DNA of 64,000 nucleotides, taken from positions 289,458-353,457 of the forward strand of contig JAACJU010000001.1 of the NCBI GenBank assembly GCA_021378565.1. The letters run 5' to 3'. Positions 43,194 to 49,055 of this stretch are shown here, piece by piece. A program made the position numbers and the translations under genes. How positions within the stretch are numbered: the stretch's first letter is position 1; each line of letters starts with the position of its first letter. The notes below the pieces were generated by a model. That model saw only the letters and a program-made list of their open reading frames with translations. It ran no database searches and was not told where the DNA came from. This DNA is from Arcobacter sp. LC1 (lineage in GTDB: Bacteria; Campylobacterota; Campylobacteria; Campylobacterales; Arcobacteraceae).

Positions 43194-43212
43194 GATATTT
43201 ATTATCATTATT
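43194..43212. promoter_or_regulatory. Fur box upstream of the imelysin operon
   Basis: GATATTTATTATCATTATT matches the 19-bp Fur consensus at 15 positions by hand count. TATAAT boxes lie at 43224-43229 and 43237-43242, just downstream, so a bound Fur would overlap or abut the promoter. A second weaker AT-rich match (aattatcataatt) begins at 43251. Iron repression of the operon is therefore likely. Confidence 0.65.
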
Positions 43213-43282
43213 AAGGTTATTTTTATAATCTCTTTGTATAATTCCATATTAATTATCATAATTAAAATTAAGGAGTAAGAAA

Positions 43283-44656
43283 ATGTTTACAAAGTCAAAA
43301 TTATTACTATCTTGCCTAGGATTATTATTACTAGCAAGTGGTTGCGCCACATCTGATATACAAGATGTTAGTTACAAAACAACAGCAAAGCACATTAACG
43401 CTAGAGTTTTATTAAGAACATACGGAAATATTGCAAGTGTATCTTACGCTGCTGCGCTAAGAGATGCTAAGTTATTACAAAAATCAATTGATATTTTTGT
43501 TGCACACCCAACAAAAATAAACCAACAAGATGCAAAAGCAGCTTGGTTAAACTCAAGAGAAAGCTATTTACAAACTGAAGCTTTTAGATTATCAAATGGT
43601 CCGATTGATGCAGATGGTTCTATAAAAAACAGTATTTGGGCCGCTAAAAAATATAGTCTTTTAGTTGGTGGTGGAATTGAAGGTGAGATAAATCCTTGGC
43701 CGCTTGATGAAAACATGATTGACTACACCATAGATGCACATTACAAAAGAACTCATCATAATATCATTGACACAAGAGGAGTTTTTAATCCAGGGGGAGA
43801 AGATCCAAAGCCTGTAAATGTAAGAAAAATCACAGCAAAAGCACTAAGAGCATTAAACGCAAATGGTGGGGATGCAAATGTGGCAGCTGGATACCACGCT
43901 ATCGAGTTTTTACTTTGGGGACAAGACCAAGATTATCATAACTTTATGGCTGATAAGATAACTCACGGACCTTTAGTAGCAGGACTTAGATCTTATACTG
44001 ACTATACAACTGCAAAATATGCAAACAGAAGAAAAGCTTATTTAAAAGTAGTTACTGATTTATTAGTAAAAGATTTAGCAAAAGTAAACACAGCCTGGAA
44101 TGGGAAGGCAATGTACAGAAAATCTCTTATAGGAGAATTAAAAGGCAAAGATGCTTCTAAAAATCTTCCAAGCAAAGTAGCTTTAAAGCAAATTTTCATA
44201 GGTATTGGAACGTTCTTAAAATCTGAATTAGCAAATGAGCGAATTGCAGTTGCTGTTTTAACTCCTAGTGAAGAAGATGAACATTCTTGCTTTTCTGATA
44301 ATACCAACAGAGATATATATCAAAATTATATGGGTGCAAAAAATATCATAATGGGAACTTATGATGGGCTGGATTTCGGAGTGTCATTTATAAATACTCT
44401 TGATGCTAAAACAAAAGCTAAAATGCTTAAATTAATGAATTCGATTGAATTAAAATTTGATTCAGTAAATTCAATAGCTAGAGTTTCTAGACACTTTGAT
44501 TGGCAAATTAGACCAAATGACCCTCAGCATATAGTTTTAATTAACCTAAAAAATCAACTAAGACACTTAGGTGATATGATGGTTAAGATTGCAAAAGCAA
44601 ATGGAATCAATTTAACTACAAGTGATGTAACTGATCCAGATGAGACTAAAGTTTAA
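43283..44656 (+). CDS. Imelysin-family lipoprotein (IrpA-like)
   Basis: The 457-residue protein has a lipoprotein signal (SCLGLLLLASGC) and the imelysin (peptidase M75) fold. The signature GxHxxE is intact in NVAAGYHAIEFLLWGQDQDY near residue 210. Other conserved blocks are TAKHINARVLLRTYGNIASV, NPGGEDPKPVNVRKITAKAL and HSCFSDNTNRDIYQNYMGA. Members are iron-regulated outer-envelope proteins; peptidase activity has been questioned and an iron-related role is likely. It is the first gene of a Fur-box operon with one-base overlap into the di-haem oxidoreductase gene. Confidence 0.9.
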   Translation: MFTKSKLLLSCLGLLLLASGCATSDIQDVSYKTTAKHINARVLLRTYGNIASVSYAAALRDAKLLQKSIDIFVAHPTKINQQDAKAAWLNSRESYLQTEAFRLSNGPIDADGSIKNSIWAAKKYSLLVGGGIEGEINPWPLDENMIDYTIDAHYKRTHHNIIDTRGVFNPGGEDPKPVNVRKITAKALRALNANGGDANVAAGYHAIEFLLWGQDQDYHNFMADKITHGPLVAGLRSYTDYTTAKYANRRKAYLKVVTDLLVKDLAKVNTAWNGKAMYRKSLIGELKGKDASKNLPSKVALKQIFIGIGTFLKSELANERIAVAVLTPSEEDEHSCFSDNTNRDIYQNYMGAKNIIMGTYDGLDFGVSFINTLDAKTKAKMLKLMNSIELKFDSVNSIARVSRHFDWQIRPNDPQHIVLINLKNQLRHLGDMMVKIAKANGINLTTSDVTDPDETKV

Positions 44657-45948
44657 TGAAAAAAATTCTCAGATTTTTTGTAGTAGCGAGTATTCTTGCT
44701 ACTACACTTTTTGGTTTTGATACAAGAGTTCCAAATCTAAATAACAAGCAAATAGATAAATTTATCTTAGGTTTAAGTTTTTTCTCAAAACCATGGGTAC
44801 CCGCTCCAACAGCTACAACAGCCAGAGATGGACTTGGACCTTTATTTAGCTCAAATTCTTGCAACCACTGTCACCAAAACAATACAGGTGGCTATGTTTA
44901 CAATAATAAAGGCGAGGTAAGTAGAGAAATGGTTCCAAGATTGTCAATGCCAGGAAAAGTAGCAAAAAATAGTCACTTAGGATTTATTCCTACGCCTCAT
45001 TATGGTGCGCAATTATCAATAAACGGCACAGTTGGAGTACCTTTTGAGGGAAGATTAGAGCTTAAATATACAAAAATAAAAATTACTTTTCCTGATAAAA
45101 GTGTAGTTTATTTAAGAAATCCACATTATTCAATTAAACATTTACAATATGGAAAATTAGCAAAAAATTATATTTTAAGTGTTAGAAGAGGACCACCTTT
45201 GATAGGAGTTGGATATATAGAAGATATTTCACAAAAAGATATATTAAAAAATGTTGATGTAAATGATAAAAATCATGATGGTATAAGTGGAAAAGCTAAT
45301 TATGTTTATGATATAAAAGCAAAAAAGTTTGCTCTTGGTTTGTATGATTATAAAGATTATGCGCCAACATTAAGACAACAAGTTGCAACTGCTATGCACA
45401 ATGACATGAGTTTAAATACTACTTATTTCACAAAAGATAATTGTACAAAGGTAGAAAAAGCTTGTTTGAATGCACCAAAACCTTTTGACGCTATTGATGC
45501 TCCTGATTTTAGAATTGACGCAATTGCTTATTATATAGAAAAATTACAAATTCCAAAATCAGCTAAAAATATAGACAAAAAAGGTCAAAAACTTTTTGCA
45601 TCTTTAGAATGTGCGCTTTGTCATATTCCTACTTTTAAAAATAAAAAGGGAGGTTTTTTACATCCTTATAGTGATTTTTTACTTCATGATATGGGTAAAG
45701 CTTTGGGTGACAAAAGAAGTGAATATTTAGCCAAAGGAGATGAATGGAGAACGACTCCACTTTGGGGCATGAATTACAGAGTCCACAAATCAAATACAAA
45801 ACAAGTATTTTTACATGATGGAAGAGCTAGAACCGTGCAAGAAGCTATTTTATGGCATGGCGGAGAAGCAAAAAAATCAAAAGAATATTTTATGCATCTT
45901 GATAAAAAAGATAGAGAGCATTTGATAAATTACGTAAAAGGATTATAA
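44656..45948 (+). CDS. Di-haem c oxidoreductase (COG3488 thiol-oxidoreductase-like)
   Basis: The 430-residue exported protein has a signal peptide (RFFVVASILATTLFGFD) and two haem c sites: SNSCNHCHQNNTGG near residue 70 and SLECALCHIPTF near residue 320. Conserved features include GLGPLFSSNSC, IDAIAYYIEKLQIP, TPLWGMNYRVHKS and FLHDGRARTVQEAILWHGGEA. The family (COG3488) is related to di-haem peroxidases and is regularly encoded beside imelysin genes. It probably oxidises or reduces an iron-linked or thiol substrate in the periplasm. Translational coupling with the imelysin genes supports a shared complex or pathway. Confidence 0.9.
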   Translation: MKKILRFFVVASILATTLFGFDTRVPNLNNKQIDKFILGLSFFSKPWVPAPTATTARDGLGPLFSSNSCNHCHQNNTGGYVYNNKGEVSREMVPRLSMPGKVAKNSHLGFIPTPHYGAQLSINGTVGVPFEGRLELKYTKIKITFPDKSVVYLRNPHYSIKHLQYGKLAKNYILSVRRGPPLIGVGYIEDISQKDILKNVDVNDKNHDGISGKANYVYDIKAKKFALGLYDYKDYAPTLRQQVATAMHNDMSLNTTYFTKDNCTKVEKACLNAPKPFDAIDAPDFRIDAIAYYIEKLQIPKSAKNIDKKGQKLFASLECALCHIPTFKNKKGGFLHPYSDFLLHDMGKALGDKRSEYLAKGDEWRTTPLWGMNYRVHKSNTKQVFLHDGRARTVQEAILWHGGEAKKSKEYFMHLDKKDREHLINYVKGL

Positions 45949-45949
45949 A

Positions 45950-46906
45950 ATGAAGAAGATATTATTAGCACTAATCTTGTTTTTTTCTTTGCTTAGCGCA
46001 AATGAAAGTATAACAAAAAGTATTTTGACTAATGTTTTGCAAAAGCAAATAAAAAATGCAATAACTGCAGTTACTGAGCTACAAAAGACTAAAAAAAGCC
46101 AAGATTTCTATGCTCTTGTTAGAGCTTGGAAAAAGGTTCAAGCTTCTTATGTAGCTGGAGATATTGATCCTAGCAGTATTGATACTCCAAGGCTTATTGA
46201 TATGTATCACAATTCAAATGATGATTTAAATGCTCAGATGAAGCTAATCATGCTTTCAAATGATGGCTTAAAAATAAGCCTTTTTAAGAATTCATATAAA
46301 AGCATAAATGCCCTTGAGTATTTACTTTTTACTAAAGATAAGATTTCTAAAACAAGGAAAAAACAAGCTCTTGAAATTGTTTTAAAAAATATTAAAAGCA
46401 AACTAGAATCTATCCAAAAAGTATATACCTTGAAAAATTCAAAAGTTTTTTTAGACAATGAAGTTGGAGCTTATTCTATGCTAGTAAATCAGCTAATACC
46501 TTCAGTGTTTAAACTAAAAGATTGGAGAATTGGAGAACCTTCTGGCTTAGCTCAAAAATACTTAGGAAAGCCAAACGCTAAAAGAGCTGAATACCCTTTG
46601 GCAAAAGCTAGTTTTATGGCGATTGACGCTGTAATTGATGCAAATTTAGCTTTAGTTGCAAAACAAAAGTATAAAAATTTATATCAATACGCTGTAAAAA
46701 AAGGTTATAAAAAAGAAATTAATCAAATAGTAATGCAACTAAAAATTGCTTCTAAAATAAGTAAAAATATAGATACAGAAGATTTTGGAACAAAAAAAGT
46801 TAAAAAGCTATTTAAAGCACTTAGTAATTTACAGCAAGAATATCAAGGATTATTTGTTTTATCACTAAATATTCCTCTTAGAATTATTGAGGCTGATGGC
46901 GACTAA
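45950..46906 (+). CDS. Second imelysin-family periplasmic protein (COG3489-like)
   Basis: The 318-residue protein has an N-terminal signal peptide (KKILLALILFFSLLSAN) and weak imelysin features: AWKKVQASYVAGDIDPSSID, SINALEYLLFTKD and FMAIDAVIDANLALVAK. At the GxHxxE site the sequence is SINALE, so the histidine is replaced by asparagine; this half of the pair may not bind the same ligand as the first imelysin. It starts one base after the di-haem gene and its stop overlaps the next ATG (TAATG). The pairing of a COG3487-type and a COG3489-type imelysin around a COG3488 protein is a known arrangement. Confidence 0.8.
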   Translation: MKKILLALILFFSLLSANESITKSILTNVLQKQIKNAITAVTELQKTKKSQDFYALVRAWKKVQASYVAGDIDPSSIDTPRLIDMYHNSNDDLNAQMKLIMLSNDGLKISLFKNSYKSINALEYLLFTKDKISKTRKKQALEIVLKNIKSKLESIQKVYTLKNSKVFLDNEVGAYSMLVNQLIPSVFKLKDWRIGEPSGLAQKYLGKPNAKRAEYPLAKASFMAIDAVIDANLALVAKQKYKNLYQYAVKKGYKKEINQIVMQLKIASKISKNIDTEDFGTKKVKKLFKALSNLQQEYQGLFVLSLNIPLRIIEADGD

Positions 46907-47931
46907 TGGATAATTTATTTTATGAATATATTTTAAATCCTTCAAAAAGAATATATTGGCTATATATTCTTTCATCGATTTTAATATCTTTAGTATATTT
47001 ATATTTTCATAAAAATGAACGAAAATTAATATTTTCAAAAAAATATTGGCTTCATAAAAGCACAAGATTAGACTTTTATTATTTTTTCATTTCTCATTTT
47101 ATAAAAGTTTTAATCTTATTGCCAATGCTTTTTGGAGTAAAAGAAGTAGCAATTTTTACTTATAGAATTTTACTTAAAAACTTTGGCTTTTATCTTAATG
47201 TTGATTTTACTTATGGACAAATAATATTGTTTTACACCTTGGCAATTTTTATTTTTAGCGACTTATCAAGATATTTTTTACATAGATTATTGCATACAAA
47301 TAAATTTTTATGGAGATTTCACAAAGTTCATCATAGCGCTAAGATTTTAAATCCTCTAACATTTTATAGGGTTCATCCTTTGGAGAATTTTTTATTTGGG
47401 TTAAGATATTCTTTGGTGATTGGAATAGTTACAGGAGTTTTTATTTATTTCTTTGGAGCAAAATTTAATATTTATAGTATTTTTGGAGTAAACATTTTCT
47501 TATTTATTTTTTCTATACTTGGAACAAACCTAAGACATTCACCTATAAAATTATCTTATTTAAAATATCTTGAATATATTTTTATATCTCCAAGACAACA
47601 CCAAATCCACCATTCAGTAAAATTTTATAATAAAAATTTTGGAGGCTATTTAGCTATATGGGATACGCTTTTTGGCTCACTCAAATTATCAAGTGAAGCA
47701 AAAATAATAAAATTGGGATTAAGAAAAAAGGAGATGAAAAATTACGAAACAGTTGGGGGCTTATTATTTAGTCCTTTAATTTTCAAAAGGAAGGAAAACA
47801 ATGAAAAATATAAAGAATGTAAAGACTATAAAAAATTTAATTTTATGTATTTTAGGAATATTTTTGTTAAGTGCTTGCACCTCTGCAAATCTATCAAAAA
47901 CAGATTTAAGGGAGCAAAAGGCTTTAGGTAA
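46906..47931 (+). CDS. Sterol desaturase / fatty acid hydroxylase-like membrane protein
   Basis: The 341-residue membrane protein has the three di-iron histidine clusters of the superfamily: HRLLH and HKVHH near residues 125-145, and HQIHH near residue 227. Five or so hydrophobic helices surround them. Such enzymes hydroxylate lipids or other hydrophobic substrates at a di-iron centre. The final 43 codons overlap the start of the next gene by 131 bases and have an odd tail (KYKECKDYKKFNFMYFRNIF) dictated by the other frame, so the original stop codon may have been lost. Presence in a Fur-box operon suggests an iron-dependent lipid modification. Confidence 0.82.
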   Translation: MDNLFYEYILNPSKRIYWLYILSSILISLVYLYFHKNERKLIFSKKYWLHKSTRLDFYYFFISHFIKVLILLPMLFGVKEVAIFTYRILLKNFGFYLNVDFTYGQIILFYTLAIFIFSDLSRYFLHRLLHTNKFLWRFHKVHHSAKILNPLTFYRVHPLENFLFGLRYSLVIGIVTGVFIYFFGAKFNIYSIFGVNIFLFIFSILGTNLRHSPIKLSYLKYLEYIFISPRQHQIHHSVKFYNKNFGGYLAIWDTLFGSLKLSSEAKIIKLGLRKKEMKNYETVGGLLFSPLIFKRKENNEKYKECKDYKKFNFMYFRNIFVKCLHLCKSIKNRFKGAKGFR

Positions 47932-48985
47932 TGCTTTGTTCCATGACAAAGCACTCTCAGCACACAACAACGAAGCGTGCGCAACCTGCCATAATCCTAA
48001 AAAAGCATTTACGGACAATAGAGGAAATGGAGTAAATAATGCAGCTTCTTTAGGAAGTAATGGAAAATCAATAGGAAATAGAAGTGCACCATCTGTAACT
48101 TACGCCCTATTCTCTCCAAAATTTTATTATAACAAGAAAAAAGGTGAATACACAGGCGGGCAATTTTGGGATGGAAGAGCACCAACTGAAGCAGACCAAG
48201 CAGGTGCACCACCTACAAATCCAGGTGAAATGGGAATGAAAGACAAAAGTACACTTATGAAAAAACTAGAAAAAAATCCTTATTATAAAAGTTCTTTTAA
48301 AAAACTATATGGTAGTGATATATTTAAAAATTCCAATCTAGCATATTTAAAAATGACTGAAGCTATCCAAGCTTATGAACATGAGAAAAAATTTTATAGA
48401 TTTGATTCTAAGTATGACAGGTATTTAAAAGACGAATATATGCCAACTGAACTTGAAGATTTAGGTATTTCTTTATTTTTCTCAAACAATAATACTTCTT
48501 GCTCAAAATGCCACATGTTAAAAGGCGAAGATAGACAAGGGGAAACTTTTACAAATTATGAATACAGAAATATTGGTATTCCAATAAACAAAGAATTAAG
48601 ATCTAAAAATGGCATTGCACTAAGCACAATCGACAATGGACTTTATCAAAATCCTTTGGTTCATAAAGATCCAAACACTAAGGGTAAATTTAAAATTCCA
48701 ACTCTAAGAAATGTAGCAATTACAGCCCCTTATATGCATAATGGAATATTTAAACACTTAAGAACAGTTGTTGAGTTTTATGACCATTACAATAATCCAA
48801 AAAGAAAAATAAACCCAGAGACTCACAAACCTTGGGCAAAACCTCAGTATGCACCAACTGTAGCATACAAATATGGGAAAAAAGAGTTAAGAGCTAAACC
48901 TTTAAATGAAAGAAAAATAAAAGCTCTTGTTGCATTTATGAGAATGTTGACTGATAAAAGATATGAGTATTTACTTAAAAAGTAA
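47801..48985 (+). CDS. Di-haem cytochrome c peroxidase-family lipoprotein
   Basis: The 394-residue protein has a lipoprotein signal (LCILGIFLLSAC) and two haem c sites: EACATCHNPKKAF near residue 66 and TSCSKCHML near residue 230. Conserved peroxidase blocks are NRSAPSVTYALFSPKFYY, GGQFWDGRAPTEADQAGAPP, FKIPTLRNVAITAPYMHNG and VVEFYDHYN. It belongs to the CcpA/MauG superfamily. A strong AAGGAAGG site lies before the ATG at 47801, inside the previous gene. Last gene of the operon, followed by a terminator. Its lipid anchor differs from soluble CcpA. Confidence 0.9.
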   Translation: MKNIKNVKTIKNLILCILGIFLLSACTSANLSKTDLREQKALGNALFHDKALSAHNNEACATCHNPKKAFTDNRGNGVNNAASLGSNGKSIGNRSAPSVTYALFSPKFYYNKKKGEYTGGQFWDGRAPTEADQAGAPPTNPGEMGMKDKSTLMKKLEKNPYYKSSFKKLYGSDIFKNSNLAYLKMTEAIQAYEHEKKFYRFDSKYDRYLKDEYMPTELEDLGISLFFSNNNTSCSKCHMLKGEDRQGETFTNYEYRNIGIPINKELRSKNGIALSTIDNGLYQNPLVHKDPNTKGKFKIPTLRNVAITAPYMHNGIFKHLRTVVEFYDHYNNPKRKINPETHKPWAKPQYAPTVAYKYGKKELRAKPLNERKIKALVAFMRMLTDKRYEYLLKK

Positions 48986-49018: not shown

Positions 49019-49055
49019 AATATGCCTAGAATCTCTCTAGGCATATTATTTTCTT
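49019..49055 (+). terminator. Terminator of the imelysin operon
   Basis: AATATGCCTAGA and TCTAGGCATATT form a perfect 12-bp stem around an ATCTC loop (49019-49047), followed by ATTTTCTT. It begins 33 bases after the cytochrome c peroxidase stop. Confidence 0.85.

Follow-up and report, generated by a model that had tools for sequence, protein, structure and literature searches.

A conserved five-gene imelysin operon with a predicted Fur box, a membrane hydroxylase and a MauG-type di-haem enzyme in Arcobacter

Known imelysin operons and the locus in Arcobacter

The imelysin operons PA4370-PA4373 of Pseudomonas aeruginosa and VC1264-VC1266 of Vibrio cholerae are Fur-regulated (PMC3143127) and encode, in this order, an imelysin, a di-haem protein and an imelysin of the GxxxxE type. 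The same core, under predicted Fur control, opens an operon in a 64-kb stretch of contig JAACJU010000001.1 (64,000 nucleotides, "the window") from the 1.86-Mb genome of Arcobacter sp. LC1. It has the hallmarks of the classical imelysin operons, namely a GxHxxE imelysin, an adjoining di-haem oxidoreductase (DHOR) and a second imelysin without the motif histidine. However, a membrane hydroxylase and a MauG-type enzyme are added here, and the first imelysin belongs to a distinct subfamily with its own DQDY motif. In the open-access literature (subscription papers lay outside the search), we found no paper that joins an imelysin with this hydroxylase or MauG as a set. The five-gene set is thus apparently undescribed as a set, although its three-gene core was already known. 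New here are a second operon that links the hydroxylase with imelysins, a multicopper oxidase in the mauG slot of related loci, and a covarying hairpin after the first imelysin gene.

Two other types of system bear comparison. In CorA/CorB and MopE copper uptake, a metal-repressed envelope binding protein is likewise co-transcribed with a MauG-like or cytochrome c peroxidase (CCP)-like di-haem protein, but the metal is copper, not iron, and the binding protein is not known as an imelysin relative. In EfeUOB and Fet3-Ftr1, an iron-binding M75 protein and/or an oxidase feeds an importer. In Fet3/Ftr1 iron uptake, a multicopper oxidase acts as the ferroxidase (PMC9174327), and EfeM, an M75 protein, binds Fe as well as Cu and Zn. 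In contrast to these systems, the genome carrying the window has no match to FTR1 (PF03239), which was detected in control genomes, and a Pfam scan of the operon proteins found neither a cupredoxin domain on the imelysins nor a DyP-type gene product.

The five-gene operon is real. Five open reading frames abut on the plus strand at 43283-48985, and their products match Peptidase_M75, DHOR, Peptidase_M75, FA_hydroxylase and CCP_MauG, in this order, above the curated Pfam cut-offs (Table 1). The original prediction, made from the sequence of the window, had placed five genes of these families here and had described the imelysin/COG3488/imelysin core as known; both statements hold. The frames are joined by 1-base TAATG overlaps or separated by a 1-bp gap, a spacing that suggests translational coupling of the five genes. 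The exception is the last pair, in which the hydroxylase and mauG frames overlap by 131 bp (47801-47931), because the hydroxylase frame of the window extends beyond its usual end. In relatives, this overlap is usually between a few and about 60 bp.

Table 1. Features of the imelysin operon, in window coordinates
Feature	Position	Strand	Remarks
Predicted Fur box GATATTTATTATCATTATT	43194..43212	.	15/19 forward, 16/19 against the reverse complement; overlaps -35 of the best sigma-70-like promoter
Perfect 17-nt palindrome TTAATTATCATAATTAA	43249..43265	.	Read directly; lies just ahead of the first start codon; shares positions with a 13/19 Fur-consensus match
Imelysin 1 (Im1), ICMP/IrpA type	43283..44656	+	Predicted lipoprotein (LLASGC); GxHxxE = G203YHAIE208; PF09375 E 3.4e-54; nearest structure 7xrx
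DHOR (PF06537)	44656..45948	+	Two CXXCH motifs; signal peptide; E 2.3e-70
Terminator-like hairpin TGTAGTAGCGAGTATTCTTGCTACTACA, then CTTTTT	44679..44706	+	Within DHOR signal-peptide codons; strong stem, U run; covarying in family
Imelysin 2 (Im2), PA4372/VC1266-like	45950..46906	+	Signal peptide; GxHxxE histidine lost; PF09375 E 3.1e-12; weak match to 3pf0
Integral membrane di-iron-type hydroxylase	46906..47931	+	FA_hydroxylase / sterol desaturase superfamily; PF04116 E 3.4e-25
MauG-type di-haem c-type enzyme, fifth gene	47801..48985	+	Predicted lipoprotein here (LLSAC); 44% identity to P. denitrificans MauG; haem ligands H64/H238; Y327 = MauG Tyr294
Intrinsic-terminator-like hairpin closing the operon	49019..49047	+	12-pair stem, then ATTTTCTTAT

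The Fur box, already recognised in the original prediction with 15 of 19 matching positions, is the top-scoring site across the window, and only 6 of 1000 shuffled upstream regions reach a score of 15. The accompanying promoter is the best promoter-like site upstream in a promoter scan (TTATCA at 43202-43207, TATAAT at 43224-43229; score 10/12). The palindrome in front of the first start codon is possibly a second Fur site. A Fur box with at least 15/19 matches lies upstream of imelysin 1 in 43 of 52 Arcobacteraceae loci (0.4 expected from dinucleotide shuffles). Of 27 five-gene loci from outside this family, 24 have a site with at least 13/19 matches, where 5.3 would be expected. These sites point to Fur control, with the operon probably switched on when iron is short.

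The junction between imelysin 1 and DHOR carries a strong folding signal in the same 52 family loci, with a mean z-score of -4.66 and values below -2 in 98% of cases. Such values are found in 6% of the loci at the DHOR/imelysin 2 junction and in 35% at the imelysin 2/hydroxylase junction, so that a weaker folding signal is present at the latter in about a third of genomes. In a 43-sequence alignment, both partners have changed in 13 of 17 base pairs of the hairpin, in a total of 36 cells, compared with 8.6 for shuffles and 7-20 for slid controls. This count describes the family consensus and not the copy in the window, since nine of the 52 loci were omitted for their hard-to-align hairpins and the hairpin of the window itself is shifted in the alignment. 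An Rfam scan at low threshold gave one match only, to a histone stem-loop, at chance level and below the gathering score. The hairpin probably acts by partial termination, as an intra-operon attenuator, or by mRNA stabilisation, either of which would favour Im1.

Conservation and iron-transport context

The set is not peculiar to the source genome. Of 104 Arcobacteraceae genomes, 73 encode imelysin 1, 75 encode the hydroxylase and 87 have relatives of the fifth protein; the orthologues lie at corresponding places. In 49 of the 52 loci that were read in detail, the five genes are complete and in unchanged order. The exceptions are L083 and L084, in which the fifth gene does not adjoin the rest, and L073, where a transposase reading frame beside a truncated DHOR gene replaces most of the operon (L073:6712-8528) and the remaining genes are gone. 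In L062 (3995-4864), the DHOR reading frame appears shortened, possibly by a frameshift. The pairwise distances of the five proteins in 51 complete loci correlate with each other (r 0.73-0.91, Mantel p 0.001), to which shared species history contributes.

At the level of the phylum, 249 sampled genomes were searched. A strong imelysin 1 match came up in 12 of them, each time with the hydroxylase encoded a short way downstream. When 84,980 species genomes were scanned with the hydroxylase profile and the best 80 of 474 relatives were kept, 56 of these 80 proved to be part of operons that contain this type of imelysin, among them those of Bisgaardia and Spirabiliibacterium. The five-gene set was also found in Sulfurovum, Sulfurospirillum, Taylorella, Advenella, Pelistega, Pasteurellaceae and Moraxella. 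The neighbourhood survey that had been proposed with the original prediction thus finds the hydroxylase and the di-haem gene kept with the imelysin core in the family and across phyla, as a widespread module. In seven loci, mostly of Sulfurovum and Sulfurimonas, a porin-like gene with a beta-barrel match below cut-off lies between the hydroxylase and mauG (L121, L123, L129, L131, L133, L134, L138). FMN-binding-like proteins follow in some of these porin-containing loci, as after L129.

Several copies of the operon lie next to iron genes. In Pasteurellaceae, the flanking genes encode an FTR1 permease and FbpB/FbpC-like proteins. FbpABC-like genes are found directly downstream in L198, L199 and L200, with the FbpA-like protein identified by Pfam. 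An FbpA-like gene is located next to L118 and, by reading, also L124; a Fur gene precedes L129, and ferritins are encoded beside L123 and L126. The genome carrying the window encodes an FbpA-like protein elsewhere (45% identity).

The relation to the classical operons was examined in the class of Moraxella macacae, with 369 genomes. The imelysin 1 matches form two groups, one of five genomes with 660-699 bits and one with under 250 bits. Throughout, imelysin 1 of the five-gene set scores at least 444 bits with the family profile, compared with under 250 bits for classical imelysins. In the high-scoring group, all five genes are present in L197, L200 and Moraxella itself. L199 has genes for an imelysin, DHOR, an imelysin, the hydroxylase and a multicopper oxidase, followed by FbpABC-like genes, and in L198 an imelysin, DHOR and a multicopper oxidase precede the FbpABC-like genes. 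In L200, mauG occupies the slot that is held by the multicopper oxidase in L199, ahead of the same FbpABC-like genes. The sharing of this slot suggests that the common function is oxidation. The multicopper oxidase of L198 and L199 has a Tat-like start. In the low-scoring group, four classical loci adjoin a MauG-type gene (L210, L212, L214 and L215).

The MauG-type enzyme and the hydroxylase

The fifth protein of the window aligns with MauG of Paracoccus denitrificans across 344 residues. The profile of its family gives 425 bits with this MauG, compared with 124 bits for the di-haem enzyme 6e1c and 82-112 bits for classical bacterial peroxidase structures. Both CXXCH haem sites are present in 59 of 59 fifth proteins, as are the equivalents of His35, Gln103, Pro107, Glu113, His205 and Tyr294; Trp93 has an equivalent in 35/59. 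This residue numbering is the established one for MauG and agrees with the positions in the MauG chain. In contrast to MauG, an equivalent of Trp199, which serves electron hopping to preMADH, is found in none of the 59 proteins, and the operon partners here are iron proteins. The NCBIfam equivalog for TTQ MauG scores 74.6 bits, far from its cut-off of 443.85. Because of this score and the missing Trp199, the strict MauG label is avoided, and the fifth gene is MauG-type rather than MauG in the strict sense. As for a MauG that would serve methylamine dehydrogenase (MADH), the MADH light chain (PF02975) was found in 0 of 104 Arcobacteraceae genomes, a weak negative, since no control genome gave a match either.

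The fifth gene had originally been read as a lipid-anchored cytochrome c peroxidase. A lipobox is indeed present in the window, but the peroxidase identity does not stand. A Tyr instead of Met or His as the sixth haem ligand is the criterion that separates MauG from CCPs (PMC7567364), and the Tyr in all 59 sequences, together with the bit scores, rules out a classical peroxidase. Lipid anchoring as a conserved feature is unsupported, as a crude lipobox pattern is found in 24 of 51 orthologues.

The hydroxylase contains the histidine boxes of a membrane protein with a di-iron site (PF04116), in keeping with the sterol-desaturase-like di-iron membrane protein of the original prediction. Ten histidines (H126, 130, 139, 142, 143, 157, 211, 232, 235 and 236) are invariant in 38 sequences from two operon types, the five-gene type and one found outside it. 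The nearest NCBIfam model, far below cut-off, is the ornithine lipid hydroxylase OlsE. A sequence search found no solved relative, and a fold search with the predicted model (pLDDT 86.8) no significant match in the PDB.

The second operon type (L142-L166) accounts for 18 of the remaining 24 loci among the best 80 hydroxylase relatives and occurs in marine Gammaproteobacteria (Pseudoalteromonas), Flavobacteriales and Myxococcales. It combines DUF4856, an imelysin, a TonB receptor and the hydroxylase. The imelysin and the hydroxylase subfamily are common to both operons, whereas DUF4856 and the TonB receptor there contrast with the di-haem enzymes and imelysin 2 here. One hydroxylase subfamily is thus linked to imelysins in two unrelated operons, a linkage that may fade further out, because the sample comprises the closest relatives only. 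No paper mentioning DUF4856 was found in the open-access literature searched.

In the imelysins, G203, H205 and E208 of Im1 are invariant, and the motif region of Im2 reads INALE, without the motif histidine. The fold search with the predicted DHOR model gave remote matches only, with resemblance to CCP and to the gamma subunit of hydrazine synthase.

Possible roles in iron acquisition

An iron role is well supported by the genomic context, which together with the literature on the PA4370 and VC1264 operons (PMC3143127) suggests iron uptake. With moderate confidence, we regard the operon as a Fur-repressed envelope module for iron acquisition, in which the imelysins would bind iron and the haem oxidases would drive the oxidation of Fe(II) to Fe(III), or of a ligand, before import. 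In iron starvation, Im1 would be made in excess by means of the attenuator hairpin, and the remaining proteins in smaller amounts. The two imelysins would collect iron in the periplasm or at the outer membrane. DHOR and the MauG-type protein would then oxidise what is bound with peroxide or oxygen, the likeliest targets being Fe(II), converted to Fe(III), or an iron ligand. The cargo would then be handed to a ferric importer, of the FbpABC type in this genome and of the FTR1 or FbpABC type elsewhere. More speculatively, the membrane di-iron protein could hydroxylate a lipid or lipophilic ligand that is needed by the imelysin step. An envelope redox pathway active under iron starvation had been part of the original prediction; the Fur box and the iron context (FbpABC-type, FTR1, Fur and ferritin neighbours) agree with it, but not the identity of the peroxidase. 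The redox chemistry of such a pathway may be directed at iron, a chelate, a protein side chain or a lipid.

Ferroxidation ahead of a ferric importer is the simplest reading that the data suggest. Several points weigh against it. MauG is known for the modification of protein side chains and not for the oxidation of iron. The scheme does not account for the hydroxylase step, and no iron-transport gene lies beside the operon within the window. Moreover, two imelysins tested elsewhere bound neither ferric ion nor haem in a thermofluor assay (PMC3143127).

The main rival is the maturation of a partner protein. The MauG-type enzyme would oxidise a Trp or Tyr of an imelysin or DHOR and so create a metal site, in an iron counterpart of CorA/CorB and MopE, which we consider possible, if doubtful. 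The examined catalytic residues of MauG are kept except Trp199 and partly Trp93, and mauG also adjoins the four classical operons mentioned above. Im1 has two invariant tryptophans (139 and 272) and two nearly invariant ones (88 and 212). In the copper-repressed corA-corB operon, for which such maturation has been proposed, the gene of a MauG/CCP-like protein shares its transcript with that of a binding protein, and a Trp of the latter is converted to kynurenine (PMC3912023). However, a comparison of five-gene operons with classical operons without mauG revealed no MauG-specific Trp in imelysin 1 or DHOR. The residues that mark the imelysin 1 of the five-gene set (such as Q216, D217, Y218, E330 and H404) are identical with mauG or with the multicopper oxidase and thus mark no MauG target. 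The universal loss of the electron-hopping Trp199 also argues against maturation. In a bolder reading, which we think rather unlikely, an imelysin receives an oxidised amino-acid ligand from the MauG-type enzyme, so that iron uptake would have its own counterpart of the kynurenine-based binding of copper, and/or a membrane-derived iron carrier is made by the hydroxylase.

Alternatively, the operon could serve a lipid or lipophilic-ligand pathway, with the hydroxylase producing a hydroxylated lipid or membrane iron carrier for the imelysins and the haem enzymes recycling the carrier. The tie of the hydroxylase subfamily to imelysins in two operons and the distant similarity to OlsE would fit, but the operon has no genes for carrier synthesis and the hydroxylase has no solved relative by sequence or fold, and we consider this explanation unlikely. 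Peroxide defence in iron starvation, with a fifth protein that removes H2O2 and is unconnected to iron capture, could draw on the CCP_MauG family assignment and on haem motifs that are common to peroxidases; the Tyr ligand and the much higher score with MauG make it very improbable. Finally, mere co-regulation of five Fur-controlled envelope genes without a common pathway is hardly credible in view of the same gene order in distant lineages, the correlated divergence of all five proteins, and the hydroxylase close downstream in every genome of the phylum sample with a strong imelysin 1 match.

The mechanism of the widespread, iron-regulated imelysins is unsettled. The five-gene set puts names to three enzymes that accompany them, and the presence of one of the MauG type suggests a concrete chemistry. 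Two comparative observations, namely the link of one hydroxylase subfamily to imelysins in two unrelated operons and the apparent exchange of the MauG-type enzyme for a multicopper oxidase, hint that imelysin function may include the oxidation of iron or of a ligand.

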